Shown here: positions 5,196-32,361 of the stretch, in pieces
Layout of the letters: each line of letters begins with the position of its first letter
Numbering within the stretch: position 1 is the stretch's first letter
From: Antedon bifida
Taxonomy: Eukaryota > Echinodermata > Crinoidea > Comatulida > Antedonidae
DNA: 64,000 nucleotides
NCBI GenBank assembly: GCA_963402885.1
Contig: OY727100.1
Span: forward strand, 19,439,665-19,503,664
Direction: 5' to 3'
Notes under the pieces: model-generated
Told to the model about the DNA's origin: nothing
The model's database searches: none
The model's input: only the letters and a program-made list of their open reading frames with translations
Made by a program: the position numbers and the translations under genes

Positions 5196-6711
5196 CTAGA
5201 ATTTAATTCGTCACTTTGACGAATTATAGGTGATCATTTTTATCATTTTAATGAAATTAAAACTTTTTAAACATGCACGTACGTTAACATACGATCGTAA
5301 AAAGTTGATGTATGCCATTCTATGACATGATGCATACGCTTATAGTACTGAGTTGTGCATGCCATATACAATATGTACAGTATATACTGTATATCTATAT
5401 ACAGTGTAGCATAGGTGAAATTACGGGACACACATCATGTTCTAATTTTTTGGTATGATGGAATTATCAAAATAAACTCAAAGATGACAATTTCGAAAGA
5501 TAATGAATTGAGCAAATAAATATAAGAATTGCAAGAGAATCTGGCATGTAGAAGCGCTGTGCGCGCTGTTTGAAATTTGTATAACTTTGACGAAAAAGAT
5601 GAAAAAACTACTTTTTAACTTCATCTGGCCATATGTTAACGTCACAACATCCGATAGGCTTAGTTTTTATATGAATTCATATCTACATTTCATCAGCTTT
5701 CATAATAAATTATAATCATCAAGGTAACCTTCAATTCTGAAGAGCTGTAAGATATTCAAATTTACGGCAAAGGTGAAATTACACGACCTACGTTATTCAA
5801 GTTTTTACGCGTGATGACGTCATCAAAATGAAAACACTGACAACTTATGATAAAGATAAATAATTAAGCAAGCACACACTGAAATTTGTGCGAAAATCGA
5901 GCTCAAATAGCGGAGATGCGCTCTATTGAATGTGATAACCTACACAAAACGGAAAAAAATCCTAATTTTTTAATTCAAGTGGCCATTTGATGACGTAATA
6001 CCATTTTGTACGTCTAATGTGTATATACATTTATATCTACAACTCAATGGCTTCCCGAATAAGTTAAAAAACTTAGGGGTCATCGTGCATTCTGAAGAAT
6101 TATTTTCATTTTAAAAATGCCTTATTTTTCATCATTTTCAGCACTTTAATGCAATTAATGTGCGCATTTTGTCATTTTTAACATGCTCGTATAGCGTTAT
6201 TTTAAGTCGGAACGGACTCAAATTTGGTGAATGTACTAAGGATGGTGAGTAGAATGCGATTTCTACAAAAAATTCGTATTTTTACGCTTTTTAAGAATTG
6301 CGCGCGCAAAAACGCATTTTTGCGCAGTAATTTTTTGAAACACGCAAATAGCCTAATTCATGCTCTAAATTGATCAAAACTTAATTTTGAGCTTTTTAAA
6401 TTTTTTACGCGCGATTTCACGCGTATGACCCTACGTGCGCGTGCCTTTTATTGGTTAATATATTTACCTTTTACCTGAAGTTTACGTATTGTGAATTTTA
6501 TTGATATGTGATAAAGAGTTATGGCGATATGATTGATAATGTGATTTAACAAAATGGCGTATAAATGACGTCACGGTTGAGTGATCACGCTGAAAAGCTT
6601 ATTAGGATTAAGTTACAGTATTTGAAAGATATTGTGAAAATTTTGTCATCTTCAACATTCAACTTTTTGAGATAATTGTTACACAAAATCTGTACAGAGA
6701 GAAATAAAGAA

Positions 6712-8236
6712 CTAGACATGTAACTCGTCACTTTGACGAGTTTGGTTTTCCGCTGCGCAAGTGGTGCAACATTAACATTAAGGGGATAGGTTGAGGACAA
6801 AAGGAAGTGTTCACGTTGGCATTATGACCTGAACTGAAGAATATGATATGTTTTTATTGCTGAATTCTATTATTTTGATTCATATATAGTATACACAGTA
6901 TAATCTGTATCCATATCACATACAGTGTAGAATAGGTGAAATTACGGGACCCGCTACTTATTGCAATTTTTAACATGGCGACGGCATCAAAATGAAATAC
7001 AAAGATAGCAATTTCGGAAGGATATTATCTCAGCAACAACATATTAACGTGCAAAAGAAATTTGAATACGTGAAATATTGATGCGCGCTCTTTTAAATGC
7101 AATGAATTATGACGCAAAAGATGAAAATACGACTTTTTTCATTTAACTGGCCATATGATGACGTCACAACATCCGATTGGCAAAATTTTCACATGATTTC
7201 GTATCTACAATCCAATAGCTTCCATAAAACGTTTTAATCGTGATTATCAAATTTTATTCTTACGAGCTATAACAGATTAAAATTTAATGTAAAGATGAAA
7301 TTAATGCCACACGTAATTTAAATTTTTAGGAATGATGACGTCAAAAAAATTAAAATATTTCTAATTCATGCGAAAGACAGTTGATTGACCTAGACAATAT
7401 CAAAATTTGGGTGAAAATGGAAAACGGATAAGTGGAGATGCGCTCTATTAAATGTGATGAGCTATGACGAAAGATACAAAAATCCTAAATTTTATATTAG
7501 CGTGGCCATACGATGACATCACAATGTCCGGTTAGCCATATTAATACATGATCCGATATCTACAACTCATTAACTTCCAGAAAATGTCATCCACAAAAAG
7601 TTGACCGTGCAGTTTAGAAATTACGACTGTTTAAAAAAAGGCATAATTTTGACGAATTTTTTAACCTTTTCAACAAAAACTCGCGCAAATTGTCCAATTC
7701 CACGTGCTCGTATGACGTTACTTTAAGTCGAAATTGTTTAAAAGTTGGTAAAATTACTAGAAAAGGCTGGAAAAACATAAATCACGCGAAAAAAATATGT
7801 TTTTAATGCTACGTGCGCACCGCACACGTAAAAATTTGCGCACGCGTGGGAATTTTTTACATGCTTAAAACGACATGAAACGCGTAGAAAGTTGATTAGA
7901 AATTAATTTTGCGCATTTTGAAATTTTAAATGCGCGTGCGCGCGTAACTTTGTGTAAAACACGCAATTTTTGTTCAACAGAAAGTTAGCGCATGATATAA
8001 ATTAAATTTGTGCAAAGTTTCAATATAAAATGTTATTTGGTTTTTGACCTATGTTAAATACGAGAAAATCGTTAAATCGCGCGTACGTCACGTTGCGCAA
8101 TTGTAAACATCATGAAAAGCTTCGCTTGACGACGTTACATAAATGTCAAAATGTTAACATAGTTCACAAAATGTTATGTTTGCAAGTTTCAGAGAAAAGC
8201 GATACACAAAAATCATACAGAAAGAAAGAAGATAAA
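6712..8236 (-). mobile_element. Helitron-like copy E2 (type B, 5' end missing)
   Basis: The terminal CTAG is at 6712-6715, then the arms AACTCGTCA/TGACGAGTT, then the type B word TTGGTTTTCCGC. E2 is inserted in E1 after AAATAAAGAA. It is interrupted at 8236 by E3. Its 5' remnant is not found at the expected place near 19,491, so this is the only unpaired end in the array. Confidence 0.75.
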
Positions 8237-9829
8237 CTAGACATGAAACTCATCACTTTGACGAGTTAGTTATCCGCACCACGACAAACGCCACGTGCAC
8301 GTCATACGTTGGAATATTGCACACAGATAAAGATTATGGCATTATGACAAGAACTGAAGAATATGACATGCTGTTAGTGCTGAATTTTGTGTCATATAGT
8401 ATATACATGCAAACAGTATAAGCTGTATACATATTACATACAGTGTAGAATAGGTGAAATTACGGGACCCGCCATTTATTCCAATTTTTAACATGGCGAC
8501 GGTATCAAAATGAAACACTTAGATAGCAATTTCAGAAGGAAATTATCTCAGGAACAACATATTAACGTGTAGAAGAAATTTGAATACGTAAAATATAGAT
8601 GCGCACCCTTTTAAATGTGATGAACTATTACGCAAAATATCAAAATACGACTTTTTTTATTCAACTGGCCATATGATGACGTCACAACATCCGATTGGCA
8701 AAATGTTTACATGAATTCGTATCTACAATCCAATAGCTTCCAGAAAACGTTTTAATCGTGATTATCACATTTTATTCTTACGAGCTATAACAGATTAAAA
8801 TTTACTGTACAGATGAAATTAATGCCACACGTAATTTAAATTTTTAGGCATGATGACGTCAAAAAAATTAAAATATTTTTAACTCATGCGAAAGATAGTT
8901 GATTGACCTAGACAATATCAAAATCGGGGTGAAAATGGAAAACGGATAAGTGGAGATGCGCTCTATTAAATGTGATGAGCTATGATGAAAGATACAAAAA
9001 TCCTAAATTTTATATTCGCGTGGCCATACGATGACGTCACAATGTCCGGTTAGCCATATTGATACATGATCCTATATCTACAACTCATCAACTTCCAGAA
9101 TATGTCATCCACAAAAAGTTGACCGTGCAGTTTAGAAACTACGTCTGTTTAAAAAAAGGCATAATTTTGACGATTTTCTGAACTTTTTCATCAAAAACGC
9201 GCGCAAATTGACCAATTCGACGTGCTCGTATGACGTAACCTTAAGCCCAAATTGTTTAAAAGTTGGTAAAATTACTAGAAGAGGCTGGAAAAACATAAAT
9301 CACGCGGAAAATATATGTTTTCAATGCTACGTGCGCACCGCACACGTAAAAATTTGCGCACGCGTGGGAATTTTTGACATGCTTAAAATGACATGAAACG
9401 CGTAGAAAGTTGATTAGAAAATAATTTAGCGCATTTTGAAATTTTAAATGCGCGTGCGCGCGTAACTTTGTGTAAAACACGCAATTTTTGTTCAACAGAA
9501 AGTTAGCGCATGATATAAATTAAATTTGTGCAAAGTTTCAATTTAAAATGTTATTTGGTTTTTGACCTATGTTAAATACGAGAAAATCGTTAAATCGCGC
9601 GTACGTCACATTGCGCAATTGTAAACATCATGAAAAGCTTCGCTTGACGACGTTACATAAATGTCAAAATGTTAACATAGTTCACAAAATGTTATGTTTG
9701 CAAGTTTCAGAGAAAAGCGTTACACAAAAATCATACAGAAAGAAAGAAGAGAAATAAAAAGATGATGTTGATGTTGATGATTTCGTACAATCACAAGAGG
9801 TTATCAGCAACTTCGTTGCGGATAACCAA
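8237..9829 (-). mobile_element. Helitron-like copy E3 (type C 3' end, type D 5' end)
   Basis: The 3' end is type C (AGTTATCCGC after the hairpin, 8237 onward). The body and 5' subterminal region resemble type B copies. The 5' hairpin is the variant GGTTATC...GGATAACC (9,799-9,829). Both hairpin arms changed relative to type B, and the change makes the 5' word nearly complementary to its type C partner. About 1.59 kb. Confidence 0.75.
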
Positions 9830-11453
9830 CTAGACATGTAACTCGTCACTTTGACGAGTTTGGTTTTCCGCCGCGCAAGTGGTGCAACATGAACGTGTAA
9901 CGACGTACCTTACCGTACCGAACATTAAGGGGATAGGTTGAGGACAAAAGGAAGTGTCCACGTTGGCATTATGACCTGAACTGAAGAATATGATATGTTT
10001 TTATTGCTGAATTCTATTATTTTGATTCATATATAGTATACACAGTATAATCTGTATCCATATCACATACAGTGTAGAATAGGTGAAATTACGGGACCCG
10101 CTATTTATTGCAATTTTTAACATGTTGACGGTTTTAAAATGAAACGCGAAGGTAGCATTTCCGAAAAGAAATTATCTCAGCAACAACGTATTAGCGTGTA
10201 GAAGAAATTTGAATACGTGAAATATTGATGCGCGCTCTTTTAAATGCAATGAATTATGACGCAAAAGATGAAAATACGACTTTTTTCATTTAACTGGCCA
10301 TATGATGACGTCACAACATCCGATTGGCAAAATTTTCACATGATTTCGTATCTAAAATCCAATAGCTTCCAGAAAACGTTTTAATCGTGATTATCAAATT
10401 TTATTCTTACGAGCTATAACAGATTAAAATTTACTGTAAAGATGAAATTAATGCCACACGTAATTTAAATTTTTAGGAATGATGACGTCAAAAAAATTAA
10501 AATATTTATAATTCATGCGAAAGACAGTTGATTGACCTAGACAATATCAAAATTTGGGTGAAAATGGAAAACGGATAAGTGGAGATGCGCTCTATTAAAT
10601 GTGATGAGCTATGACGAAAGATACAAAAATCCTAAATTTTATATTAGCGTGGCAATACGATGACGTCACAATGTCCGGTTAGCCATATTAATATATGATC
10701 CGATATCTACAACTCATTAACTTCCAGAAAATGTCATCCACAAAAAGTTGACCGTCTAGTTTAGAAATTACGACTGTTTAAAAAAAGGCATATTTTAAAC
10801 GAATTTTTTAACCTTTTCATAAAAAACGCGCGCAAATTGTCCAATTCGACGTGCTCGTATGACGTATCTTTAAGTCGAAATTGTTTAAAATTTGGTAAAA
10901 TTACTAGAAAAGGCTGGAAAAACATAAATCACGCGAAAAAAATACGTTTTCAATGCTACGTGCGCACCGCACACGTAAAAATTTGCGCACGCGTGGGAAT
11001 TTTTGACATGCTTAAAACGAAATGAAACGCGTAGAAAGTTGATTATAAATTAATTTTGCGCATTTTGAAATTTTAAATGCGCGTGCGCGCGTAACTTTGT
11101 GTAAAACACGCAATTTTTTTTCCACAGAAAGTTAGCGCATAATATAAATTAAACTTTTGCAAAGTTTCAAGTTGAAATGTTATTTGGTTGTCGAGCTATG
11201 TTAAATACGAGAAAATCGTTAAATCGCGCGTACGTCACGTTGCGCAATTGTAAGCATCATGAAAAGCTTCGCTTGACGACGTTACATAAATGTCAAAATG
11301 TCAACATAGTTAAAAAAATGTTATGTTTGCAAGTTTTAGAGAAAAGCGTTACACAAAAATCATACAGAAAGAAAGAAGATGAAAAAAAAGATGATGATGA
11401 TGATTTCGTACAATCACAAGAGGTTTTCCTGCAACTTCGTTGCGGAAAACCAA
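9830..11453 (-). mobile_element. Helitron-like copy E4 (type B, complete, 1,624 bp)
   Basis: CTAG lies at 9830-9833 directly against the 5' end of E3. The 3' hairpin is followed by TTGGTTTTCCGC. The 5' end is the hairpin GGTTTTCC...GGAAAACCAA, ending at 11,453. It is uninterrupted and serves as the reference for the type B body. Its subterminal A8 plus GATGATGATGATG tract is the site that is interrupted in E5 and E6. Confidence 0.8.
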
Positions 11454-14400
11454 CTAGACATGTAACTCGTCACTTTGACGAGTTTGGTTTTCCGCCGCGC
11501 AAGTGGTGCAACATGAACGTGTAACGACGTACCTTTTAACATTAAGGGATAGGTTGAGGACAAAAGGAAGTGTTCACGTTGGCATTATGACCTGAACTGA
11601 AGAATATGATATGTTGTTATTGCTGAATTCTATTATTTCGATTCATATATAGTATACACAGTATAATCTGTATCCATATCACACAGTGTAGAATAGGTGA
11701 AATTACGGGACCCGCTATTTATTGCAAATTTTAACATGTTGACGGTTTTAAAATGAAATGCGAAGGTAGCAATTTCGGAAGGAAATTATCTCAGCAACAA
11801 CATATTAACGTCTAGAAGAAATTTGAATACGTGAAATATTGATGCGCGCTCTTTTAAATGTAATGAATTATGACGCAAAAGATGAAAATACGACTTTTTT
11901 CATTTAACTGGCCATATGATGACGTCACAACATCCGATTGGCAAAATTTTCACATGATTTCGTATCTACAATCCAATAGCTTCCATAAAACGTTTTAATC
12001 GTGATTATCAAATTTTATTCTTACGAGCTATAACAGATTAAAATTTACTGTAAAGATGAAATTAATGCCACACGTAATTTAAATTTTTAGGAATGATGAC
12101 GTCAAAAAAATTAAAATATTTCTAATTCATGCGAAAGACAGTTGATTGACCTAGACAATATCAAAATTTGGGTGAAAATGGAAAACGGATAAGTGGAGAT
12201 GCGCTCTATTAAATGTGATGAGCTATGACGAAAGATACAAAAATCCTAAATTTTATATTAGCGTGGCCATACGATGACGTCACAATGTCCGGTTAGCCAT
12301 ATTAATACATGATCCGATATCTACAACTCATTAACTTCCAGAAAATGTCATCCACAAAAAGTTGACCGTGCAGTTTAGAAATTACGACTGTTTAAAAAAA
12401 GGCATAATTTTGACGAATTTTTTAACTTTTTCAACAAAAACTCGCGCAAATTGTCCAATTCCACGTGCTCGTATGACGTTAATGTAAGTCGAAATTGTTT
12501 AAAAGTTGGTAAAATTACTAGAAAAGGCTGGAAAAACATAAATCACGCGAAAAAAATATGTTTTTAATGCTACGTGCGCACCGCACACGTAAAAATTTGC
12601 GCACGCGTGGAAATTTTTTACATGCTTAAAACGACATGAAACGCGTAGAAAGTTGATTAGAAATTAATTTTGCGCATTTTGAAATTTTAAATGCGCGTGC
12701 ACGCGTAACTTTGTGTAAAACACGCAATTTTTGTTCAACAGAAAGTTAGCGCATGATATAAATTAAACTTGTGCAAAGTTTCAATTTAAAATGTTATTTG
12801 GTTTTTGACCTATGTTAAATACGAGAAAATCGTTAAATCGCGCGTACGTCACGTTGCGCAATTGTAAACATCATGAAAAGCTTCGCTTGACGACGTTACA
12901 TAAATGTCAAAATGTTAACATAGTTCACAAAATGTTATGTTTGCAAGTTTCAGAGAAAAGCGTTACACAAAAATCATACAGAAAGAAAGAAGATGACAAA
13001 AAAGATGACTAGACATGTAACTCGTCACTTTGACGAGTTTGGTTTTCCGCCGCGCAAGTGGTGCAACATGAACGTGTAACGACGTACCTTACCGTACCGA
13101 ACATTAAGGGGATAGGTTGAGGACAAAAGGAAGTGTCCACGTTGGCATTATGACCTGAACTGAAGAATATGATATGTTTTTATTGCTGAATTCTATTATT
13201 TTGATTCATATATAGTATACACAGTATAATCTGTATCCATATCACATACAGTGTAGAATAGGTGAAATTACGGGACCCGCTATTTATTGCAATTTTTAAC
13301 ATGTTGACGGTTTTAAAATGAAACGCGAAGGTAGCATTTCCGAAAAGAAATTATCTCAGCAACAACGTATTAGCGTGTAGAAGAAATTTGAATACGTGAA
13401 ATATTGATGCGCGCTCTTTTAAATGCAATGAATTATGACGCAAAAGATGAAAATACGACTTTTTTCATTTAACTGGCCATATGATGACGTCACAACATCC
13501 GATTGGCAAAATTTTCACATGATTTCGTATCTAAAATCCAATAGCTTCCAGAAAACGTTTTAATCGTGGTTATCAAATTTTATTCTTACGAGCTATAACA
13601 GATTAAAATTTACTGTAAAGATGAAATTAATGCCACACGTAATTTAAATTTTTAGGAATGATGACGTCAAAAAAATTAAAATATTTATAATTCATGCGAA
13701 AGACAGTTGATTGACCTAGACAATATCAAAATTTGGGTGAAAATGGAAAACGGATAAGTGGAGATGCGCTCTATTAAATGTGATGAGCTATGACGAAAGA
13801 TACAAAAATCCTAAATTTTATATTAGCGTGGCAATACGATGACATCACAATGTCCGGTTAGCCATATTAATATATGATCCGATATCTACAACTCATTAAC
13901 TTCCAGAAAATGTCATCCACAAAAAGTTGACCGTCTAGTTTAGAAATTACGACTGTTTAAAAAAAGGCATATTTTAAACGAATTTTTTAACCTTTTCATA
14001 AAAAACGCGCGCAAATTGTCCAATTCGACGTGCTCGTATGACGTATCTTTAAGTCGAAATTGTTTAAAATTTGGTAAAATTACTAGAAAAGGATGGAAAA
14101 ACATAAATCACGCGAAAAAAATACGTTTTCAATGCTACGTGCGCACCGCACACGTAAAAATGTGCGCACGCGTGGGAATTTTTGACATGCTTAAAACGAC
14201 ATGAAACGCGTAGAAAGTTGATTATAAATTAATTTTGCGCATTTTGAAATTTTAAATGCGCGTGCGCGCGTAACTTTGTGTAAAACACGCAATTTTTTTT
14301 CCACAGAAAGTTAGCGCATAATATAAATTAAACTTTTGCAAAGTTTCAAGTTGAAATGTTATTTGGTTGTCGAGCTATGTTAAATACGAGAAAATCGTTA

Positions 14401-14563
14401 AATCGCGCGTACGTCACGTTGCGCAATTGTAAGCATCATGAAAAGCTTCGCTTGACGACGTTACATAAATGTCAAAATGTCAACATAGTTAAAAAAATGT
14501 TATGTTTGCAAGTTTTAGAGAAAAGCGTTACACAAAAATCATACAGAAAGAAAGAAGATGAAA

Positions 14564-16166
14564 CTAGACATGAAACTCGTCACTTTGACGAGTTAGTTAT
14601 CCGCACCACGACAAACGCCATGTGCACGTAATACGTTGGAATATTGCACACAGATAAAGATTATGGCATTATGACAAGAACTGAAAAATATGATATGCTG
14701 TTAGTGCTGAATTCTGTCAATTTTGTGTCATATAGTATATACATGCAAACAGTATAATCTGTATACATATTACATACAGTGTAGAATAGGTGAAATTACG
14801 GGACCCGCCATTTATTCCAATTTTTAACATGGCGACGGTATCAAAATGAAACACTTAGATAGCAATTTCAGAAGAAAATTATCTCAGGAACAACATATTA
14901 ACGTGTAGAAGAAATTTGAATACGTAAAATATAGATGCGCACCCTTTTAAATGTGATGAACTATTACGCAAAATATGAAAATACGTCTTTTTTTATTCAA
15001 CTGGCCATATGATGACGTCACAACGTCCGATTGGCAAAATGTTTACATGAATTCGTATCTACAATCCAATAGCTTCCAGAAAACGTTTTGATCATGATTA
15101 TCACGTTTTATTCTGACGAGCTATAACAGATTGAAATTTCCTGTAAAGATAAAATTAATGACCCAGGTAATTAAAATTTTTAGGCATGATGACGTCATAA
15201 AAATGAAAATATTTTTAACTCATGCGGAAGATAGTTGATTGACCTAGATAATATAAAAATCGGGGTAAAAATGGAAAACAGATAATTGGAGATGCGCTCT
15301 ATTAAATGTCATGCGCTATGATGAAAGATACAAAAATCCTATATTTTATATTCGCGTGGCAATACGGTGACGTCACAATGTCCGGTTAGCCATATTTATG
15401 CATGATCCAAAATCTACAACTCATCAACTTCCAGAATGTGTAATAAAAATAACTTTCACCGTTTAGTTTAGGAACTACGAATGTTTAAAAAAGGGCATAA
15501 TTTTGACAAATTTTGACGATTTTTTGAACTTTTTCATCAAAAATGCACGTAAATTATCCAATTCGAAGTGCCCGTATGACGTAATTTTAAGTCGAAATTG
15601 TTCAAAAGTTGGTAAAATTACTAGAAAAGGATGGAAAAACATAAATCACGTGAAAAAAATTGTTTTCAACGCTACGTGCGCACCACGCGCGTAAAAAAAT
15701 GCGCGCACGTGGGAATTTTTTACATGCTCAAAATGACATGAAACGCGTAGAAAGTTGATTAGAAATTAATTTTTCGCATTATAAAATTTTAAACCCGCGT
15801 GCGCGCGTAACTTCGTGTGAAACATGCCATTTTTTTTTCACAGTCAGTTAGCGCAAGATATAACTTAAACTTTTGTTAAGTTTCAATTTAAATTGTTATA
15901 TGGTTTTTGATCTACGTTAAATACGCGAAATTCGTAAAAACGCGCGTAAGTCATGTTACGCAACTCTGACGTCATTTACAATAGCAGGTGCACAACTTCA
16001 CGTGAACGCTCATATGTTGACAAAGTTATGAAATGTTATGTTAACACGTTTTAGAGATACGCTCTGCACAAAAATGACAGAAAGAAAGAAGAATACAGAA
16101 AAAAAAAAAAAAAGATGATGAAACAGGACAGTTACAAGGAGTTATCCGCTGAATGCGGATAACTAA
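14564..16166 (-). mobile_element. Helitron-like copy E7 (type C, complete)
   Basis: CTAG at 14,564. The 3' hairpin is followed by AGTTATCCGC. The 5' hairpin GTTATCCGC/GCGGATAAC ends at 16,166. Length is about 1,603 bp. It is nearly identical to E9 and to the F4 copy in the right array. Confidence 0.8.
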
Positions 16167-17761
16167 CTAGATTTGAACTCGTCACTTTGACGAGTTAGTT
16201 ATCCGCACGACAAACGCCACGCGCACGTCATACGTTGGAATTTTGCACACGGAAAAAGATTATGGCATTATGACCTGAACTGAAGAATATCATATGCTGT
16301 TAGTGCTGGATTCTGTCAATTTTGAGTCATATAGCATATACAGTGCAAACGGTATAATCTGTATACATGTTACACACAGTGTAGAATAGGTGAAATTACG
16401 GGACCCCCCGTTTATTCTTATTTTTAACATGGCGACGGTATCAAAATGAAAAACTAAGATAGCAATTTCGGAAGGATATTATCTCAGCAGCAACATGTTA
16501 ACGTGAAAAAGAAATTTGGATACGTAAAATATAGATGCGCGCTCTTTTAAATGTGATGAACTATGACGCAAAATATGAAAATACGACTTTTTTTATTAAA
16601 CTGGCCATGTAATGACGTCACAACGTCGTATTGGAAAAAAGTTCACATGAATTCGTATCTACAATCCAATAGCTTCCAGGAAACGTTTTAATCATGATTA
16701 TCACTTTTTATTCTGACGAGCTATAACAGATTGAAATTTACTGTAAAGATGAAAATAAGTGACCCACGTTATTTACGTTTTTAGACATGATGACGTAATA
16801 AAAATTAAAATATTTTTAACTCATGCGAAAGATAGTTGATTGACCTAGACACTATCAAAATCGGGGTGAAAATGGAAAACGGATAAGTAGAGATGCGCTC
16901 TATTAAATGTGATGAGCTATGACGAAAGATACAAAAATCCTAAATTTTATATTCGCGTGGCCATACGATGACGTCACAATGTCCGGTTAGCCATATTAAT
17001 ACATGATCCGATATCTATAACTCATCAACTTCAAGAATATGTCATCCACAAAAAGTTGACCGTCCAGTTTAGAAATTACGACTGTTTAAAAAAAGGCATA
17101 ATTTTGACAAATTTTGACGAATTTTTAAACTTTTTCATCAAAAACTCGCGAAAATTATCCAATTCTACGTGCCCGTATGACGTGATTTTAAGTCTAAATA
17201 GTTTAAAAGTTTGTAAAATTACTAGAAAAAGCTGGAAAAACATAAATCACGCGAAAAAAAAAGTTTTTTTGCGCTACGTGCGCACACGTGCGTAAAAAAA
17301 ATGCGCGCGCCTGGGAATTTTTGACATGCTTAAAATGACATGAAACGCGTAGAAAGTTGATTAGAAATTAATTTTTCGCATTTTGAAATTTTAAACGCGC
17401 GTGCGCGCGTAACTTTGTGTGAAACATGTCATTTTTTTTACACAGAAAATTAGCGCATGATATAAATTAAACTTTTGCTAAGTTTCATTTAAAATTGTTA
17501 TATGGTTTTCGATCTATGTTAAATACGCAAAAAACGTAAAAACGCGCGTAAGTCACGTTGCGTAACTCTGTCGTCATTCACAATAAGAGGGGCACAACTT
17601 CACGTGAATGCCCATATGTTGACAAAGTTATGAAATGTTATGTTTACATGTTTTAGAGATACGCTCTGCACAAAAATGACAGAAAGAAAGAAGAATACAG
17701 AAAAAAAAGAAGATGAAACAGGACAGTTACAAGGAGTTATCCGCTGAATGCGGATAACTAA
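16167..17761 (-). mobile_element. Helitron-like copy E8 (type C, complete)
   Basis: It abuts E7 head to tail with no spacer. The 3' CTAG is at 16,167 and the 5' hairpin GTTATCCGC/GCGGATAAC ends at 17,761. It is more diverged from E7 and E9 than they are from each other, which argues against simple recent tandem duplication of neighbours. Confidence 0.78.
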
Positions 17762-19363: not shown

Positions 19364-19564
19364 AAAAAGATGATGATGATGATTTCGTACAATCACAAGA
19401 GGTTTTCCTGCAACTTCGTTGCGGAAAACCAATGATGATGATTTCGTACAATCACAAGAGGTTTTCCTGCAACTTCGTTGCGGAAAACCAATAAAGATTT
19501 CATACAATAACAATAGGTGATCATTTTATTCTAAATGATCACCTAATAATAACAACCATAAAAT

Positions 19565-19678: not shown

Positions 19679-19732
19679 GTAAGTAATTCTGTTTCGTTTT
19701 AAACCAAAATTACTAAATTAACTTGAACTGTA

Positions 19733-20342: not shown

Positions 20343-20632
20343 TATTATTTAAAACAATTTTAACATATGAGGTTACCTGAACATACACCTTCACAAGCTT
20401 GCAAACGTCTTCATACCTCGTATAATGTACAAGAATGTGTAATGTAATGTAGTTATTCGGACACTCAGATATATCACGTTTTGCTGATATAAAACATGCT
20501 ATGCCTACATATGTGACACGTAAACTTACATAAATTATGATTTTCAAACATGATTTGTCATAAACCGGGTAAAAAACATTAAACAGTTGGTAATTTTGTA
20601 GTTTCATTTATAAATATCGTATATTATATATA
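20343..20632. other. 3' flank of gene copy B, interrupted by the right array
   Basis: This matches the 3' flank of the intact gene (CCTGAACATAC near 2,537; TTTTCAAACATGATTTGTCAT near 3,190) but lacks the MITE at 2650-3002, so that MITE inserted after the duplication or was lost here. The flank continues at 32,362 after the Helitron array. Confidence 0.6.
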
Positions 20633-20706
20633 TTTGGTTTTCCGCAACGAAGTTGCAGGAAAACCTCTTGTGATTGTACGAAATCATCATCATCAACAAC
20701 TTTTTA

Positions 20707-22296
20707 TTAGTTATCCGCATTTAGCGGATAACTCCTTGTAACTGTCCTGTTTCATCATCTTTTTTTTTTTTTTTTTTTTTTTTCTGTATTCTTCTTTCTT
20801 TCTGTCATTTTTGTGCAGAGCGTATCTCTAAAACGTGTTAACATAACATTTCATAACTTTGTCAACATGTGAGCGTTCACGTGAAGTTGTGCACCTGCTA
20901 TTGTGAATGACGTCAGAGTTGCGCAACATGACTTACACGCGTTTTTACGAATTTCGCGTATTTAACGTAGATCAAAAACCATATAACAATTTAAATTGAA
21001 ACTTAACAAAAGTTTAAGTTATATCTTGCGCTAACTGACTGTAAAAAAAAAATGGCATGTTTCACACGAAGTTACGCGCGCACGCGCGTTTAAAATTTTA
21101 TAATGCGAAAAATTAATTTCTAATCAACTTTCTGCGCGTTTCATGTCATTTTGAGCATGTAAAAAATTCCCACATGCGCGCATTTTTTTACGCGCGCGGT
21201 GCGCACGTAGCGTTGAAAACAATTTTTTTCACGTGATTTATGTCTTTCCAGCCTTTTCTAGTAATTTTACCAATTTTTGAACAATTTCGACTTAAAATTA
21301 CGTCATACGGGCACGTTGAATTGGATAACTTACGTGTGTTTTTGATGAAAAAGTTACAAAAATCGTCAAAATTATGCCTTTTTTTAAACAGTCGTAATTT
21401 CTAAACTGCACGGTCAACTTTTTGTGGATGACATATTATGGAAGTTGATGAGTTGTAGATATCAGATCATGTATTAATATGGCTAACCGGACATTGTGAC
21501 GTCATCGTATGGCCACGCGAATATAAAATTTATGATTTTTGTATCTTTCGTCATAGCTCATCACATTTAATAGAGCGCATCTCCACTTATCCGTTTTCTA
21601 TTTTCACCCCGATTTCGATATTGTCTAGGTCAATCAACTATCTTTCGCATGATTTAAAAATATTTTAATTTTTATGACGTCATCATGCCTAAAAATTAAA
21701 ATTACGTCTGGCATTAATTTCATCTTTATAGTAAATTTTAATCTGTTATAGCTCGTAAGAATAAAATGTGATAATCACGATTAAAACGTTTTCTGGAAGC
21801 TATTGGATTGTAGATACGAAATCATGTGAACATTTTGCCAATCGGATGTTGTGACGTCATCATATGGCCAGTTAAATAAAAAATGTCGTATTTTCATCTT
21901 TTGCGTCATAATTCATTACATTTAAATGAGCGCGCATCAATATTTCACGTATTCAAATTTCTTCTACACGTTAATATGTTGTTGCTGAGATAATTTCCTT
22001 CTGAAATTGCTACCTTCGCGTTTCATTTTAAAACCGTCAACATGTTAAAAATTGCAATAAATGGCAGGTCCCATAATTTCACTTATTCTACACTTATGTA
22101 ATATGTATACATATTATACTATATATACTATACGACACAAAATTGACAGAAATCAGCACTAACAACATATCATATTCTTCAGTTCAGGTCATAATGCCAT
22201 AATCTTTTTCTGTGTGCAATATTCCAACGTATGACGTGCACGTAGCGTTTGTCGTGCGGATAACTAACTCGTCAAAGTGACGAGTTACATGTCTAG
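20707..22296 (+). mobile_element. Helitron-like copy F2 (type C)
   Basis: It starts TTAGTTATCCGC after an A and ends CTAG at 22,296, with GCGGATAACTAA before the 3' hairpin. It is inserted 73 bp from the 5' end of F1. About 1,590 bp. The body mixes B-like and C-like stretches. Confidence 0.78.
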
Positions 22297-23898
22297 TTAG
22301 TTATCCGCATTCAGCGGATAACTCCTTGTAACTGTCCTGTTTCATCATCTTTTTTTTTTTTTCTGTATTCTTCTTTCTTTCTGTCATTTTTGTGCAGAGC
22401 GTATCTCTAAAATGTGCAAAGTTAACATTTCATAACTTTGTCAACATATGCGCATTCACGTGAAGTTGTGCACCCAATATTTTTTAATGACGTCAGAGAT
22501 GCGCAACGTGACTTACGCGCGTTTTTATGAATTTCGCGTATTTAACATAGATCGATAACCATATAACAATTTAAATTAAAACTTAACAAAAGTTTAAGTT
22601 ATATCTTGCGGTAACTGACTGTGTAAAAAAAATGGCATGTTTCACACGAAGTTACGCGCGCATGCGCGTTTAAAATTTTAAAACGCGAAAAATCAATTTC
22701 TAATCAACTTTCTACGCGTTTCATGTCATTTTGAGCAGGTAAAAAATTCACACGCGCGCGCATTTTTTTACGCGCGTGGTGCGCACGTATCGTTGAAAAC
22801 AATTTTTTTCGCGTGATTTATGTTTTTCCAGCCTTTTCTAGTGATTTTACCAACTTTTAAACGATTTCGACTTAAAATTACGTCATACGGGCACGTCGAA
22901 TTGGATAATTTACGTGCATTTTTGATGAAAAAGTTCAAAAAATCGTCAAAATTTGTCAAAATTATGCCCTTTTTTAAACAGTCATAGTTCCTAAACTAAA
23001 CGGTGAAAGTTATTTTTATTGCACATTCTGGAAGTTGATGAGTTGTAGATTTAGGATCATGCATTAATATGGCTAACCAGACATTGTGACGTCACCGTAT
23101 GGCCACGCGAATATAAAATATAGGATTTTTGTATCTTTCATCATAGCGCATGACATTTAATAGAGCGCATCTCCAATTATCTGTTTTCCAATTTTACCCC
23201 GATTTTTATATTATCTAGGTCAATCAACTATTTTCCGCATGAGTTAAAAATATTTTAATTTTTATGACGTCATCATGTCTAAAAATGTAAATAACGTGGG
23301 TCACTTATTTTCATCTTTACAGGAAATTTCAATCTGTTATAGCTCGTCAGAATAAAACGTGATAATCATGATTAAAACGTTTTCTGGAAGCTATTGGATT
23401 GTAGATACGAATTCATGTAAACATTTTGCCAATCGGACGTTGTGACGTCATCATATGGCCAGTTGAATAAAAAAAGTCGTATTTTCATATTTTGCGTAAT
23501 AGTTCATCACATTTAAAAGGGCGCGCATCTATATTTTACGTATTCAAATTTCTTCTACACGTTAACATGTGGTTGCTGAGATAATTTCCTTCCGAAATTG
23601 CTATCTTAGTGTTTCATTTTGATACCGTCGCCATGTTAAAAATAGGAATAAACGGGGGGGTCCCGTAATTTCACCTATTCTACACTGTAAGTAACATGTA
23701 TACAGATTATACCGTCTGCACTGTATATACTATATGACACAAAATTAACAGAATTCAGCACTAACAGCATATGATATTCTTCAGTTCAGGTCATAATGCC
23801 ATAATCTTTTTCCGTGTGCAAAATTCCAACGTATGACGTGCGCGTGGCGTTTGTCGTGCGGATAACTAACTCGTCAAAGTGACGAGTTTCATGTCTAG
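22297..23898 (+). mobile_element. Helitron-like copy F3 (type C)
   Basis: It abuts F2 head to tail. TTAGTTATCCGC at 22,297, CTAG at 23,895-23,898, about 1,602 bp. The 5' and 3' terminal words are complementary. Confidence 0.78.
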
Positions 23899-23965
23899 TT
23901 AGTTATCCGCATTCAGCGGATAACTCCTTGTAACTGTCCTGTTTCATCATCTTTTTTTTTTTTTT

Positions 23966-25206
23966 TTAGTTATCCGCATTCAGCGGATAACTCCTTGTAA
24001 CTGTCCTGTTTCATCATCTTTTTTTTTTTTTTTTTCTGTATTCTTCTTTCTTTCTGTCATTTTTGTGTCACACGTAACTCAAAAACGTGTAAACATAACA
24101 TTTTATAACTTTGTCAACATGTGGGCATTCACGTGAAGTTGTGCACCTGCTATTGTGAATGACGTCAGAGTTGCGCAACGTGACTTACGCGCGTTTTTAT
24201 GAATTTCGCGTATTTAACATAGATCGAAAACCATATAACATTTTAATTTGAAACTTAGAAAAAGTTTAAGTTATATATTGCGCTAACTGACTGTGGGAAA
24301 AAAATGACATGTTTCACACAAAGTTACGCGTGCACGCGCGTTTGAAATTTCAAAATGCGAAAAATCAATTTCTAATCAACTTTCTACGTGTTTCATGTCA
24401 TTTTGAGCATGTAAAAAATTCCCACGCGCGCGCATTTTTTTACGCGCGCAGTGCGCACGTAGCGTTGAAAACAATTTTTTTCCCGTGATTTATGTTTTTC
24501 CAGCCTTTTCTAGTAATTTTACCAACTTTTGAACAATTTCGATATAAAATTACGTCATACGGGCACGTCGAATTGGATAATTTACGTGCATTTTTTATTA
24601 AAAAGTTCAAAAAATCGTCAAAATTTGTCAAAATTATGCCCTTTTTTAAACAGTCGTAGTTCCTAAACTAAACGGTGAAAGTTATTTTTTTTGCATATTC
24701 TGGAAGTTGATGAGTTGTAGATTTTGGATCATGCGTTAATATGGCTAACCGGACATTGTGACGTTACCGTATGGCCACGCGAATATAAAATATAGGATTT
24801 TTGTATCTTTCATCATAGCGCATGACATTTAATAGAGCGCATCTCCAATTATCTGTTTTCCATTTTTACCCAAATTTTTATATTATCTAGGTCAATCAAC
24901 TATCTTTCGCATGAGTTAAAAATATTTTAATTTTTATGACGTCATCATGTCTAAAAATGTAAATAATGTGGGTCACTTATTTTCATCTTTACAGTAAATT
25001 TCAATCTGTTATAGCTCGTCAGAATAAAACGTGATAATCATGATTAAAACGTTTTCTGGAAGCTATTGGATTGTAGATACGAATTCATGTGAACATTTTG
25101 CCAATCGGATGTTGTGACGTCATCATATGGCCAGTTGAATAAAAAAAGTCGTATTTTCATATTTTGCGTAATAGTTCATCACATTTAAAAGGGCGCGCAT
25201 CTATAT
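23966..25206 (+). mobile_element. truncated Helitron-like copy F5 (1,241 bp)
   Basis: It has a type C 5' end but stops at a CATCTATATT word about 350 bp before the usual 3' end, with no 3' hairpin or CTAG. The next 5' end follows at once. It appears essentially identical to F6. Confidence 0.75.
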
Positions 25207-26447
25207 TTAGTTATCCGCATTCAGCGGATAACTCCTTGTAACTGTCCTGTTTCATCATCTTTTTTTTTTTTTTTTTCTGTATTCTTCTTTCTTTCTGTCA
25301 TTTTTGTGTCACACGTAACTCAAAAACGTGTAAACATAACATTTTATAACTTTGTCAACATGTGGGCATTCACGTGAAGTTGTGCACCTGCTATTGTGAA
25401 TGACGTCAGAGTTGCGCAACGTGACTTACGCGCGTTTTTATGAATTTCGCGTATTTAACATAGATCGAAAACCATATAACATTTTAATTTGAAACTTAGA
25501 AAAAGTTTAAGTTATATATTGCGCTAACTGACTGTGGGAAAAAAATGACATGTTTCACACAAAGTTACGCGTGCACGCGCGTTTGAAATTTCAAAATGCG
25601 AAAAATCAATTTCTAATCAACTTTCTACGTGTTTCATGTCATTTTGAGCATGTAAAAAATTCCCACGCGCGCGCATTTTTTTACGCGCGCAGTGCGCACG
25701 TAGCGTTGAAAACAATTTTTTTCCCGTGATTTATGTTTTTCCAGCCTTTTCTAGTAATTTTACCAACTTTTGAACAATTTCGATATAAAATTACGTCATA
25801 CGGGCACGTCGAATTGGATAATTTACGTGCATTTTTTATTAAAAAGTTCAAAAAATCGTCAAAATTTGTCAAAATTATGCCCTTTTTTAAACAGTCGTAG
25901 TTCCTAAACTAAACGGTGAAAGTTATTTTTTTTGCATATTCTGGAAGTTGATGAGTTGTAGATTTTGGATCATGCGTTAATATGGCTAACCGGACATTGT
26001 GACGTTACCGTATGGCCACGCGAATATAAAATATAGGATTTTTGTATCTTTCATCATAGCGCATGACATTTAATAGAGCGCATCTCCAATTATCTGTTTT
26101 CCATTTTTACCCAAATTTTTATATTATCTAGGTCAATCAACTATCTTTCGCATGAGTTAAAAATATTTTAATTTTTATGACGTCATCATGTCTAAAAATG
26201 TAAATAATGTGGGTCACTTATTTTCATCTTTACAGTAAATTTCAATCTGTTATAGCTCGTCAGAATAAAACGTGATAATCATGATTAAAACGTTTTCTGG
26301 AAGCTATTGGATTGTAGATACGAATTCATGTGAACATTTTGCCAATCGGATGTTGTGACGTCATCATATGGCCAGTTGAATAAAAAAAGTCGTATTTTCA
26401 TATTTTGCGTAATAGTTCATCACATTTAAAAGGGCGCGCATCTATAT
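25207..26447 (+). mobile_element. truncated Helitron-like copy F6 (1,241 bp)
   Basis: Second unit of an exact-period 1,241-bp tandem pair with F5, truncated at the same word and followed by the 5' end of F7. The shared truncation point shows that one was copied from the other or from a concatemer. Confidence 0.75.
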
Positions 26448-29266
26448 TTAGTTATCCGCACTCAGCGGATAACTCCTTGTAACTGTCCTGTTTCATCATC
26501 TTTTTTTGGTTATCCGCACTTGGCGGATAACCCCTTGTTATTGTCAGGATCTTTTTTTTTTTTTTTTTTTTTTTCTATGTTATTCTTCTTTCTTTCCCAG
26601 AATTTTGTGTCACGTGTATCTCAAATTCTGATCAACATTACATCGTATAACTTTGTCAGAAGATTTACCTCTATCTGTAGAAGTGCAGGACAGTTCGTTT
26701 TTTTACTTTAGAGTCGCGCAGCGTAAGCTACGCGCGATTTTATGAATTTTGCGTATTTAACATAGACTAAAAACCAAAAGTCATTTTGTAATGACACTTG
26801 GTGAACATTTAAGTCATATCAAGTGCAAACTTTCTATGGATTAAAAATGGCATGTTTCACAGAAAGTTACGCGCGCACGCGCGTTTAAAATTTCAGAATG
26901 CGTAAAATCAATTTCTAATCAACTTTCTACGCGTTTCAGGTCATTTTGAGCATTTCAAAAATTCCCACGCGTGCGCAATATTTTTACGCGCACGTGCGCA
27001 CGTAGCGCAAAAACATCTTTTTTTTGCTTGATTTTTGTTTTTTCAGCCTTTTCTAGTAAATTTACCAATTTTCAATCAATTTCGACTTAAAATCACGTCA
27101 TACGAGCACGTAGAATTAAACAATTTGCGCGCGTTTTTAATGAAAAAGTTAAAAAATTTGTCAAAATTTTGCCTTTTTTAAAACAGTCATAGATTGTAAA
27201 CTACGTGGTGAACTTTTTTAAAATTGCATATTCTGGAAGTTGATGAGTTGTAGATATCGAATCATGCATCGATATGGCTAACCAGACATTGTGACGTCAT
27301 CGTATGGCCACTCGAATATAAAATATAGGATTTTTGTCTCTTTCGCATAGCTCATCACATTTAATAGAGCGCATCTCCACTTATCCGTATTCCATTTCCT
27401 CCCATTTTGTTATATTGTCTAGGCCAATCAATTATCTTTCGCATAATCTACCATTTTTTAAATTGTGATGACGTCATCATGTCCAAAAGCGTCAATAACT
27501 TGGGTCCCTTATTTTCACCTATTCTGCACTGTATGTAGTACGTATACAGAATATAGTGTATACCGTATATACTTTGACGTGACGCAAAATAGAGAGCGCA
27601 CTAACATTTTTACAATGGCATAATCGTTTTTCTGCGCGCAATATTCTAACGTATGACGTGCACGTGGCTTTTGCGCTGCGGATAACCTAACTCGTCCGTA
27701 GTGACGAGTTCAAATCTAGTTTTTTTTTTTTTTCTGTATTCTTCTTTCTTTCTGTCATTTTTGTGTCACACGTAACTCAAAAACGTGTAAACATAACATT
27801 TTATAACTTTGTCAACATGTGGGCATTCACGTGAAGTTGTGCACCTGCTATTGTGAATGACGTCAGAGTTGCGCAACGTGACTTACGCGCGTTTTTATGA
27901 ATTTCGCGTATTTAACATAGATCGAAAACCATATAACATTTTAATTTGAAACTTAGAAAAAATTTAAGTTATATCTTGCGCTAACTGACTGTGGGAAAAA
28001 AATGACATGTTTTACACAAAGTTACGCGTGCACGCGCGTTTGAAATTTCAAAATGCGAAAAATCAATTTCTAATCAACTTTCTACGTGTTTCATGTCATT
28101 TTGAGCATGTAAAAAATTCCCACGCGCGCGCATTTTTTTACGCGCGCGGTGCGCACGTAGCGTTGAAAACAATTTTTTTCCCGTGATTTATGTTTTTCCA
28201 GCCTTTTCTAGTAATTTTACCAACTTTTGAACAATTTCGATATAAAATTACGTCATACGGGCACGTCGAATTGGATAATTTACGTGCATTTTTTATTAAA
28301 AAGTTCAAAAAATCGTCAACATTTGTCAAAATTATGCCCTTTTTTAAACAGTCGTAGTTCCTAAACTAAACGGTGAAAGTTATTTTTTTTGCATATTCTG
28401 GAAGTTGATAAGTTGTAGATTTTGGATCATGCGTTAATATGGCTAACCGGACATTGTGACGTCACCGTATGGCCACGCGAATATAAAATATATGATTTTT
28501 GTATCTTTCATCATAGCGCATGACATTTAATAGAGCGCATCTCCAATTATCTGTTTTCCATTTTTACCCAAATTTTTATATTATCTAGGTCAATCAACTA
28601 TCTTTCGCATGAGTTAAAAATATTTTAATTTTTATGACGTCATCATGTCTAAAAATGTAAATAATGTGGGTCACTTATTTTCATCTTTACAGTAAATTTC
28701 AATCTGTTATAGCTCGTCAGAATAAAACGTGATAATCATGATTAAAACGTTTTCTGGAAGCTATTGGATTGTAGATACGAATTCATGTGAACATTTTGCC
28801 AATTGGATGTTGTGACGTCATCATATGGCCAGTTGAATAAAAAAAGTCGTATTTTCATATTTTGCGTAATAGTTCATCACATTTAAAAGGGCGCGCATCT
28901 ATATTTTACGTATTCAAATTTCTTCTACACGGTAATATGTGGTTGCTGAGATAATGTCCTTCAGAAATTGCTGTCTTAGTTTTTCATTTTGATACCGTCG
29001 CCATGTTAAAAATAGGAATAACCGGGGGTCCCGTAATTTCACCTATTCTACACTGTATGTAATATGTATACAGATTATACTGTTTATACTGTATATACTA
29101 TATGACACAAAATTGACAGAATTCAGCACTAACAACATATCATATTCTTCAGATCAGGTCATAATGCCATAATCTTTTTCTGTGTGCAAAAGTCTAACGT
29201 ATGACGTGCACGTGGCGTTTGTCGTGCGGATAACTAACTCGTCAAAGTGACGAGTTACATGTCTAG
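26448..29266 (+). mobile_element. Helitron-like copy F7 (type C, split by F8)
   Basis: The 5' part is 26,448-26,505 (58 bp) and the 3' part is 27,720-29,266, about 1,605 bp joined. It is the full-length counterpart of F5 and F6, and continues past their truncation point with TACGTATTCAAATTTC. Confidence 0.78.
26506..27719 (+). mobile_element. Helitron-like copy F8 (terminal type E, diverged)
   Basis: The 5' word TTGGTTATCCGC with its hairpin GGTTATCCGC/GCGGATAACC matches the 3' word GCGGATAACC before the hairpin arms AACTCGTCC and TGACGAGTT. The terminus is AAATCTAG. At 1,214 bp it is shorter than the others because it lacks part of the internal duplication. Its body is clearly more diverged. 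It sits inside the poly-T tract of F7. Confidence 0.75.
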
Positions 29267-32200
29267 TTTTTTCTGTATTCTTCTTTCTTTCTGTCATTTT
29301 TGTGCAGAGCGTATCTCTAAAACGTGTTAACATAACATTTCATAACTTTGTCAACATATGAGCGTTCACGTGAAGTTGTGCACCTGCTATTGTAAATGAC
29401 GTCAGAGTTGCGTAACATGACTTACGCGCGTTTTTACGAATTTCGCGTATTTAACGTAGATCAAAAACCATATAACAATTTAAATTGAAACTTAACAAAA
29501 GTTTAAGTTATATCTTGCGCTAACTGACTGTGAAAAAAAAATGGCATGTTTCACACGAAGTTACGCGCGCACGCGGGTTTAAAATTTTATAATGCGAAAA
29601 ATTAATTTCTAATCAACTTTCTACGCGTTTCATGTCATTTTGAGCATGTAAAAAATTCCCACGTGCGCGCATTTTTTTACGCGCGTGGTGCGCACGTAGC
29701 GTTGAAAACAATTTTTTTCACGTGATTTATGTTTTTCCATCCTTTTCTAGTAATTTTACCAACTTTTGAACAATTTCGACTTAAAATTACGTCATACGGG
29801 CACTTCGAATTGGATAATTTACGTGCATTTTTGATGAAAAAGTTCAAAAAATCGTCAAAATTTGTCAAAATTATGCCCTTTTTTAAACATTCGTAGTTCC
29901 TAAACTAAACGGTGAAAGTTATTTTTATTACACATTCTGGAAGTTGATGAGTTGTAGATTTTGGATCATGCATAAATATGGCTAACCGGACATTGTGACG
30001 TCACCGTATTGCCACGCGAATATAAAATATAGGATTTTTGTATCTTTCATCATAGCGCATGACATTTAATAGAGCGCATCTCCAATTATCTGTTTTCCAT
30101 TTTTACCCCGATTTTTATATTATCTAGGTCAATCAACTATCTTCCGCATGAGTTAAAAATATTTTCATTTTTATGACGTCATCATGCCTAAAAATTTTAA
30201 TTACCTGGGTCATTAATTTTATCTTTACAGGAAATTTCAATCTGTTATAGCTCGTCAGAATAAAACGTGATAATCATGATCAAAACGTTTTCTGGAAGCT
30301 ATTGGATTGTAGATACGAATTCATGTAAACATTTTGCCAATCGGACGTTGTGACGTCATCATATGGCCAGTTGAATAAAAAAAGACGTATTTTCATATTT
30401 TGCGTAATAGTTCATCACATTTAAAAGGGTGCGCATCTATATTTTACGTATTCAAATTTCTTCTACACGTTAATATGTTGTTCCTGAGATAATTTTCTTC
30501 TGAAATTGCTATCTAAGTGTTTCATTTTGATACCGTCGCCATGTTAAAAATTGGAATAAATGGCGGGTCCCGTAATTTCACCTATTCTACACTGTATGTA
30601 ATATGTATACAGATTATACTGTTTGCATGTATATACTATATGACACAAAATTGACAGAATTCAGCACTAACAGCATATCATATTTTTCAGTTCTTGTCAT
30701 AATGCCATAATCTTTATCTGTGTGCAATATTCCAACGTATTACGTGCACATGGCGTTTGTCGTGGTGCGGATAACTAACTCGTCAAAGTGACGAGTTTCA
30801 TGTCTAGTTTATCTTCTTTCTTTCTGTATGATTTTTGTGTATCGCTTTTCTCTGAAACTTGCAAACATAACATTTTGTGAACTATGTTAACATTTTGACA
30901 TTTATGTAACGTCGTCAAGCGAAGCTTTTCATGGTGTTTACAATTGCGCAACGTGACGTACGCGCGATTTAACGATTTTCTCGTATTTAACATAGGTCAA
31001 AAACCAAATAACATTTTATATTGAAACTTTGCACAAATTTAATTTATATCATGCGCTAACTTTCTGTCGAACCAAAATTGCGTGTTTTACACAAAGTTAC
31101 GCGCGCACGCGCATTTAAAATTTCAAAATGCGCTAAATTATTTTCTAATCAAGTTTCTACGCGTTTCATGTCGTTTTAAGCATGTAAAAAATTCCCACGC
31201 GTGCGCAAATTTTTACGTGTGCGGTGCGCACGTAGCATTAAAAACATATTTTTTTCGCGTGATTTATGTTTTTCCAGCCTTTTCTAGTAATTTTACCAAC
31301 TTTTAAACAATTTCGACTTAAAGTAACGTCATACGAGCACGTGGAATTGGACAATTTGTGCGAGTTTTTGTTGAAAAAGTTAAAAAAAATGTCAAAATTA
31401 TGCCTTTTTTTAAACAGTCGTAATTTCTAAACTGCACGGTCAACTTTTTGTGGATGACATTTTCTGGAAGTTAATGAGTTGTAGATATCGGATCATATAT
31501 TAATATGGCTAACCGGACATTGTGACGTCATCGTATGGCCACGCTAATATAAAATTTAAGATTTTTGTATCTTTCGTCATAGCTCATCACATTTAATAGA
31601 GCGCATCTCCACTTATCCGTTTTCCATTTTCACCCAAATTTTGATATTGTCTAGGTCAATCAACTGTCTTTCGCATGAATTATAAATATTTTAATTGTTT
31701 TGACGTCATCATTCCTAAAAATTTAAATTACGTGTGGCATTAATTTCATCTTTACAGTAAATTTTAATCTGTTATAGCTCGTAAGAATAAAATTTGATAA
31801 TCACGATTAAAACGTTTTCTGGAAGCTATTGGATTTTAGATACGAAATCATGTGAAAATTTTGCCAATCGGATGTTGTGACGTCATCATATGGCCAGTTA
31901 AATGAAAAAAGTCGTATTTTCATCTTTTGCGTCATAATTCATTGCATTTAAAAGAGCGCGCATCAATATTTCACGTATTCAAATTTCTTTTGCACGTTAA
32001 TATGTTGTTGCTGAGATAATATCCTTCCGAAATTGCTATCTTTGTATTTCATTTTGATGCCGTCGCCATGTTAAAAATTGCAATAAATAGCGGGTCCCGT
32101 AATTTCACCTATTCTACACTGTATGTGATATGGATACAGATTATACTGTGTATACTATATATGAATCAAAATAATAGAATTCAGCAATAAAAACATATCA

Positions 32201-32361
32201 TATTCTTCAGTTCAGGTCATAATGCCAACGTGGACACTTCCTTTTGTCCTCAACCTATCCCCTTAATGTTCGGTACGGTAAGGTACGTCGTTACACGTTC
32301 ATGTTGCACCACTTGCGCGGCGGAAAACCAAACTCGTCAAAGTGACGAGTTACATGTCTAG

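Follow-up and report, generated by a model that had tools for sequence, protein, structure and literature searches.

The window analysed here is a stretch of 64,000 nucleotides from the crinoid Antedon bifida (assembly GCA_963402885.1, contig OY727100.1, positions 19,439,665 to 19,503,664, forward strand), in which positions 5196-32361 hold two arrays of related, Helitron-like elements of 1.2-1.6 kb. Each element opens with TT and a hairpin; a CAT and/or T tract and a pyrimidine stretch come next, and a body of about 1.5 kb then leads to an inverted copy of the 5' stem, a hairpin (AACTCGTCAAAGTGACGAGTT) and 9-10 nt ending in CTAG, which was read directly at the 3' ends in the window. The left arm of the 5' hairpin is AGGTGATCATTT in type A, GGTTTTCCGC in type B, AGTTATCCGC in type C and GGTTATCCGC in types D and E. 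The 5' stem of 10-13 bp after TT gives DNA folding z scores of -5.2 (B), -7.6 (C) and -6.9 (A), and the hairpins of two 3' ends give -4.3 and -3.8. Among 18 complete units, taken from the window and from 30 further loci (13 of type C, none a complete type A), the 5' stem equals the 3' repeat over 10 nt in 17, and the remaining unit, E3, agrees in 9 of 10. The arrays contain no stop-to-stop open reading frame (ORF) of 150 aa or more, and an Rfam search returned no matches.

Judged from sequence, these elements are of the Helitron2/HINE type. They are not canonical Helitron1 elements because they carry a 5' TT and a 5' hairpin instead of a 5' TC without a hairpin, although a 3' CTRR (CTAG) after a hairpin is shared with that group. 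The Helitron2/HINE traits found are a 5' hairpin with a short terminal repeat, an inverted copy of it upstream of the 3' hairpin, a 3' hairpin close to the end, and a T-rich or TT target without target duplication; the HINE traits are a microsatellite (the CAT and T tracts) near the 5' end and a non-coding sequence. As such, the Helitron-like identity proposed in an earlier sequence-only reading is retained, but the ends are those of Helitron2/HINE despite the CTAG.

The left array (5196-19546, minus strand) has the order A( B( C( D) B( B) B( B( C( C) C( C) C( C) B) B) A), where '(' is a 3' end and ')' a 5' end. Its founder is E1, whose outer flank contains no recognised relative. E1 encloses the E2 remainder, E3, E4 and E5, E5 encloses E6, and E6 encloses E7, E8 and E9, giving a depth of only four levels (E1>E5>E6>C). 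Two interrupted hosts are restored to the base. The stranded tip of E5 covers E4 bases 1-59 and the E5 remainder picks up at base 60; for E6 the tip covers E4 bases 1-69 and the remainder continues from base 70 (69+1555=1624). Exchanging the tip partners of E5 and E6 produces a 10-nt gap or duplication, and the pairing is thereby settled. E2 aligns to E4 from base 71. The left-array tips form a 59-bp tandem repeat, and the missing tip of E2 is most simply explained by slippage between adjacent, near-identical tips of about 60 bp; a read-through unit of E3 and E2 is possible. The type C copy E7 has full-length matches at 12 other places, 11 of which were reported at 100% and one at 99%.

The right array (20634-32361, plus strand) opens with a B tip and two complete C copies. 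A stranded C tip and two truncated copies follow, then a C copy interrupted by an E copy, and finally C and B remainders. R8, its founder, also has an outer flank without a recognised relative; it encloses R1, R2 and R7, R7 encloses R4, R5 and R6, and R6 encloses RE, which is again a depth of only four levels (R8>R7>R6>RE). The truncated copies R4 and R5 (23966-26447) lie in tandem before a full copy, are cut at their 3' side at a CTATAT/TTT site, and look like a duplication of one truncated unit. The two arrays are oppositely oriented about a central piece of 1.09 kb, towards which the 5' ends of both point, and comparison of this piece with the outer flanks revealed no empty site for the founders. 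Within it, positions 19744-20368 are a 628-bp copy, 93% identical, of 1877-2498, with the frame broken by a stop. The source gene at 529-2475 encodes kinase and ubiquitin-like domains, and a Pfam search of the central fragment found no families.

The sequence-only reading had reported both bracket strings, stranded 5' ends of E6, E5 and E1 in that order at 19364-19546, exact restoration of the E5 tract, a restored E6 as long as E4, insertion without target duplication, and an unpaired E2. The strings were reproduced from calls of 3' and 5' ends, the stranded ends and both restorations were found as described, no target duplication was seen at the joins, and the 5' tip of E2 is indeed absent. 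Its proposal that restored copies can be aligned to E4 or E7 is borne out exactly for E5 and E6, but the joins of R6 and R7 fall in T-runs and are a few bases off, and the R8 tip aligns over 62 of 73 nt. Similarly, the array does record an insertion order where one copy interrupts another, but not for abutting copies, which could have arrived in either order.

Table 1. Copies, remainders and stranded 5' tips in the two arrays (window coordinates).
Feature	Position	Strand	Evidence or remark
E1 (type A) remainder with 3' end	5196..6711	-	3' hairpin and CTAG; tip at 19492-19546
E2 (type B) remainder, 5' tip absent	6712..8236	-	98.6% to R8 remainder over 1463 bp
E3 complete, D-type 5' end and C-type 3' end	8237..9829	-	stem/subterminal repeat 9/10
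E4 complete type B, 1,624 bp	9830..11453	-	abuts E3 gaplessly
E5 (type B) remainder	11454..13008	-	begins at E4 base 60
E6 (type B) remainder	13009..14563	-	begins at E4 base 70; 99.7% to E4
E7 complete type C, tip with 15 T	14564..16166	-	full-length matches elsewhere
E8 complete type C, distinct variant, abuts E7 and E9	16167..17761	-	89.5% to E7, 89.8% to E9
E9 complete type C	17762..19363	-	99.75% to E7
Stranded E6 5' tip (hairpin and CAT/T tract)	19364..19432	-	E4 1-69
Stranded E5 5' tip	19433..19491	-	E4 1-59
Stranded E1 5' tip (type A)	19492..19546	-	read from sequence
Stranded R8 5' tip (type B), outer end of array	20634..20706	+	62/73 nt align to E4
R1 complete type C	20707..22296	+	ends read; stem/repeat compared
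R2 complete type C, abuts R1	22297..23898	+	ends read; stem/repeat compared
Stranded R7 5' tip (type C)	23899..23965	+	E7 1-67
R4 3'-truncated type C, 1,241 bp	23966..25206	+	100% to R5; 99.1% to R6 remainder
R5 3'-truncated type C, 1,241 bp	25207..26447	+	100% to R4
Stranded R6 5' tip (type C)	26448..26505	+	read from sequence, aligned
RE complete type E, nested in R6	26506..27719	+	read directly at the 5' hairpin and at the 3' end
R6 remainder with 3' end	27720..29266	+	aligned
R7 (type C) remainder	29267..30807	+	100% to E7 over 1,541 bp
R8 (type B) remainder with 3' end	30808..32361	+	starts at E4 base 71

The same joints recur across the genome, which was searched over 315.6 Mb in 27 contigs (the window lies in contig C13). 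With CTAG built into the patterns as a requirement, 4,180 exact 3' ends were found (2,110 + 2,070), and a reversed-pattern control gave none. In 430 gapless joints the 3' end is followed by TT and the outer arm of a B-, C-, D- or E-type 5' hairpin (reversed control 0), a pattern that identifies orientation only to the extent that, in the types read, TT labels the outer arm. A second pattern, a CATG-type 3' end with the pyrimidine stretch characteristic of the region beside 5' ends on the same strand no more than 16 nt on, occurs 241 times (reversed control 0), and no overlap with the 430 joints exists among the 100 of these 241 that were listed. At least 671 of the 4,180 3' ends (16%) thus abut the 5' end of a relative or lie a short way into its 5' tract, in the same orientation. 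Stranded C tips of the TTTCATCATC type number 102 against 100 uninterrupted ones, which implies that roughly one in two of these pads has been hit, although the patterns used for the two counts are not exact complements. The arrays of the window, described earlier as a local record, are one instance of many, with same-facing insertion at the 5' ends of relatives as the apparent cause. At locus L070, positions 2505-2940, six, probably seven, stranded 5' tips are stacked in about 430 bp; the Helitron_like_N ORF close by belongs to another family.

Position and orientation were examined in the first 100 listed exact 3' ends of contig C1 (0.25-14.2 Mb). For each, the 95 nt past the 3' end were compared by BLAST on both strands with known copies, namely those of the window and 12 loci, a reference set that may miss distant relatives. 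Of the resulting 35 matches, three short or low-complexity ones (L085, L089 and L129, two of them minus-strand matches of 22-25 nt) were discarded, which left 32 nested ends. All 32 face the same way as the relative, and 31 lie at its boundary or in its first ~110 nt. W^TT sites are found throughout the elements, with 5.2% (both strands) in those first ~110 nt. Furthermore, 29 gaps between neighbouring ends were 2 kb or less, compared with 1.4 expected, and 28 of the 29 pairs share a strand. The base before 46 non-abutting tips was A in 25, T in 20 (two of them truncated-copy junctions) and G in one. In the 67 distinct flanks outside relatives (among L071-L170), T is enriched at +1, +2, +7 to +9 and +14, a spacing of about six bases.

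The tendency to nest differs between variants. By kind of 3' end, nesting was seen in 8/8 ACATG copies (from three arrays), 9/12 TCAAA, 11/36 TCATG, 4/40 TAAAT (type A) and 0/4 others, and R8 is an ACATG copy that is not nested. Eleven of the 12 best whole-genome matches to E7 are nested, an excess that probably reflects a ranking bias towards arrays, and a second set was relied on instead. Its copies were chosen by their own tip (TTTCATCATC, 15 T, CTGTATTC), so that context plays no part in the choice: 43 of 100 uninterrupted C tips listed had exactly 15 T, 13 of these were already known (the 12 loci and E7), and the first 20 of the remaining 30 in list order were examined. Nineteen of these 20 are nested in the same orientation, with a relative's 5' end or tract downstream and a relative's tip or 3' end upstream; the exception, at C9:11086459, shows no relative at its flanks. 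Loop variants in this set are ATTC (9) and TTAG (11), and the 3' ends are TCATG (18), ACATG (1) and CAAA (1).

The 41-nt 3' end of E7 occurs 1,100 times in the genome and is borne by 35 of the 36 sampled TCATG ends. As only 11 of these 35 copies are nested, the target seems to depend on more than the terminal sequences. The 5' region was read in four non-nested copies, three of which share the first 12 nt (TTAGTTATCCGC), differ in loop and tract, and have no relative upstream; the fourth has no tip at the expected distance. We infer that some variants prefer relatives more than others with the same ends do. Target choice could come from internal sequence, a different partner, timing or chromosomal region, and the contrast between nested and non-nested variants is drawn from few copies, in sets from different parts of the genome, which makes an effect of region possible.

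Beside the observed anatomy, exact joins, positions, orientations and joint counts, an explanation can be proposed that we consider probable, namely that the arrays owe most of their growth to oriented insertion, with each copy bearing a landing pad for later ones. A founder (E1 of type A and R8 of type B in the window) would enter DNA free of relatives at a W^TT site. The 5' hairpin and T-rich or CAT tract of this founder, about 110 nt, would then serve as the landing pad, which later copies would enter at N^T (mostly W^TT) in the resident's orientation and without target duplication. An alternative entry point would be the resident's own 5' boundary, which itself begins with TT. Insertion into the tract would strand the host's tip upstream and its remainder downstream, insertion at the boundary would give a gapless tandem, and every newcomer would add a fresh pad, allowing the stacks to keep growing in a bracket-like way. 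The bracket order would be explained without further assumptions, because insertion at the pad either strands tips or makes tandems. The mobilising Rep-helicase or its endonuclease would be drawn to the 5' ends of residents. More tentatively, and with somewhat less than even confidence, one lineage may have switched from general T-rich targets to near-obligate, orientation-locked insertion at the 5' ends of its own relatives, becoming a site-specific parasite of its founders, while copies bearing an identical 41-nt 3' end would have kept general targets; the choice would then rest on internal sequence, another transposase, or the time or region of spread.

The search for a mobilising partner gave 39 Helitron_like_N matches in the genome, and one long frame carries Helitron_like_N in one piece and PIF1 with Exo_endo_phos in the next. 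At L070, the 5 kb downstream of the Helitron_like_N ORF contain no such 3' end at up to six mismatches. Helentron-like ORFs at C10:7512334, 7545862 and 7583191 and at C11:11231037 and 11264147 lie on one strand, 33-37 kb apart, a spacing that suggests large repeated units.

Several points weigh against growth on landing pads. No such 3' end occurs on the own strand within 7 kb downstream of the 3,152-aa Rep-helicase-endonuclease ORF at L069, and no ORF bounded by array-type ends was found among those read. One nested end (L155) lies deeper within its relative, and 68 of the 100 sampled ends have no recognised relative at all. A probability of about 6e-39 for 31 of 32 ends in the 5' stretch supposes independence, and the nested ends are not independent, being grouped in roughly a dozen arrays; the same holds for the ACATG copies, with their three arrays. 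Two genome-wide patterns for opposite-facing insertions gave no hits, but both are weak tests, one seeing only insertions beyond the pyrimidine stretch and the other only 3' ends no more than 16 nt apart. The sample spans only the first 14 Mb of contig C1, and all counts and joins come from one assembly. Moreover, a composition (weight) model trained on the 68 targets outside relatives places 21% of insertions within elements in the tract on average and 60% for E7, and T-richness therefore contributes.

The strongest rival takes this contribution as the whole cause, with relatives' 5' tracts acting as passive hot spots that are T-rich on the right strand and are not recognised as relatives. 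All 100 sampled ends precede T and 92 precede TT, targets outside relatives are themselves T-rich (T at +8 in 52/67 flanks and at +14 in 48/67), the strand asymmetry of the tract would yield the orientation, and the model weights the E7 tract highly. However, the same model, with 4,180-12,000 tracts assumed, expects 0.6-1.6% of insertions in relatives' tracts, and 31 of 100 were observed there. Poly-T alone is not scarce, since the genome has 33,936 runs of exactly ten T, yet only two of the 68 insertions outside relatives precede eight or more T (L089 and L115). In addition, 24 of the 35 copies with E7's 41-nt 3' end are non-nested, compared with one of the 20 tip-picked copies. We consider a passive hot spot unlikely as the sole cause.

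It is less likely again that survivorship created the pattern, that is, that insertion was wide and copies persisted mainly in harmless places such as earlier copies. The gapless joints listed for contig C1 are confined to 6.0-27.4 Mb of its 33.2 Mb, many of them at 20-21.4 Mb, as though some regions retained arrays. However, the body of a relative should be as harmless as its 5' end, and the concentration of 31 of 32 ends in the first ~110 nt and their single orientation are left unexplained.

Rolling-circle end bypass, in which tandems are made at once when the 3' stop is missed, has been invoked for clusters in bat and silkworm (PMC4067079), but is very improbable here. Abutting neighbours differ by 4-11% (E4/E5 remainder 95.8% identical, E3/E4 91.5%, E8/E9 89.8%, E7/E8 89.5%, R1/R2 89.0%), and rolling-circle concatemers therefore do not fit: the near-identical neighbours of a concatemer array were not seen in these five pairs (89-96%), R4/R5 being the exception. 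In at least four of the listed gapless joints a type A 3' end stands before a tip that is not of type A, and bypass is unable to split a host's tract. Segmental duplication, unequal crossing-over or homologous integration of element circles is marginally less probable still. R4 and R5 resemble a tandem duplication, and the remainders of E2 and R8 are 98.6% alike with the same end site. However, E7 matches elsewhere from end to end without chimaeras, the 20 tip-picked copies have varied flanks, and a single crossover would not strand tips within tracts. For most joints read, concatemers, segmental duplication and circle integration are rejected in view of the neighbour identities and the end-to-end identity elsewhere. 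An assembly artefact is the least credible explanation, for although 1.6-kb repeats are difficult to assemble, the same joint types occur in hundreds of places and two joins are base-exact.

Many of these features are already in print, including nested, clustered and tandem Helitrons, T-rich targets, HINE microsatellites and stacked 5' termini (PMC4067079, PMC7492417, PMC5148889, PMC3288121, PMC12628747, PMC3627910; the comparisons below refer to the portions of these sources available to us). HINE/DINE-1 elements are non-autonomous Helentrons (Thomas et al., 2014; PMC4067079) and, like the elements here, are non-coding, with palindromic subterminal repeats within a few nt of the 5' end, a 3' palindrome and a microsatellite, a TT target in T-rich DNA, no target duplication, and clustering. 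In contrast, the elements here end in CTAG, the outer edge of their 3' repeat lies some 31 nt inside the end compared with 38-60 in the mite families, and no Helentron with array-type ends was found; the portion of that source compared attributes tandem clusters to a bypassed terminator and does not mention insertion in one orientation at the 5' ends of relatives. Helitron2 (Bao and Jurka, 2013; PMC3627910) likewise starts with T and has a hairpin at its 5' end, asymmetric terminal inverted repeats and a 3' repeat directly upstream of the 3' hairpin, but in Chlamydomonas it is described as inserting after TTTT, whereas here insertion is mostly at W^TT and often on relatives.

The Fusarium FoHeli elements also have Helitron2-type ends, and their stacked 5' termini were put down to self-insertion, with one insertion 2 bp upstream of another copy's 5' end; these are few cases, in contrast to the hundreds of joints with counts of position and orientation presented here (PMC5148889). 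Maize Helitrons are reported to insert preferentially near one another, and their multi-terminus copies are attributed to nesting, but strict 5'-end targeting is not described in the available portion of that source (PMC3288121). Tandem dimers of other transposable elements arise through target preference as well (McGurk and Barbash, summarised in PMC12628747), but the part of the summary at hand has no carried landing pad. In a literature search that had most subscription journals outside its reach, none of the titles listed or texts available describes near-obligate insertion in one orientation at the 5' ends of relatives. Helitron nesting and tandem arrays are already known, and the degree of self-targeting is the newer part.

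Two further features of the window lie outside the arrays. At about 49275-49318 (minus strand) there is a lone 5' tip of about 45 nt without an adjoining body, as if an insertion had been cut short, and 36012-36652 is a complex minisatellite, built from units of approximately 20, 134 and 209 bp and open in three overlapping minus-strand frames.

Tandem Helitron arrays have so far been blamed on a missed replication stop, whereas the nested joins, orientation and position described here favour targeted insertion. The arrays are partly self-dating and supply copies that share their 3' ends yet differ in target; such arrays could reveal how a rolling-circle transposase picks its target. The stacks of stranded tips also represent one route to satellite-like repeats.

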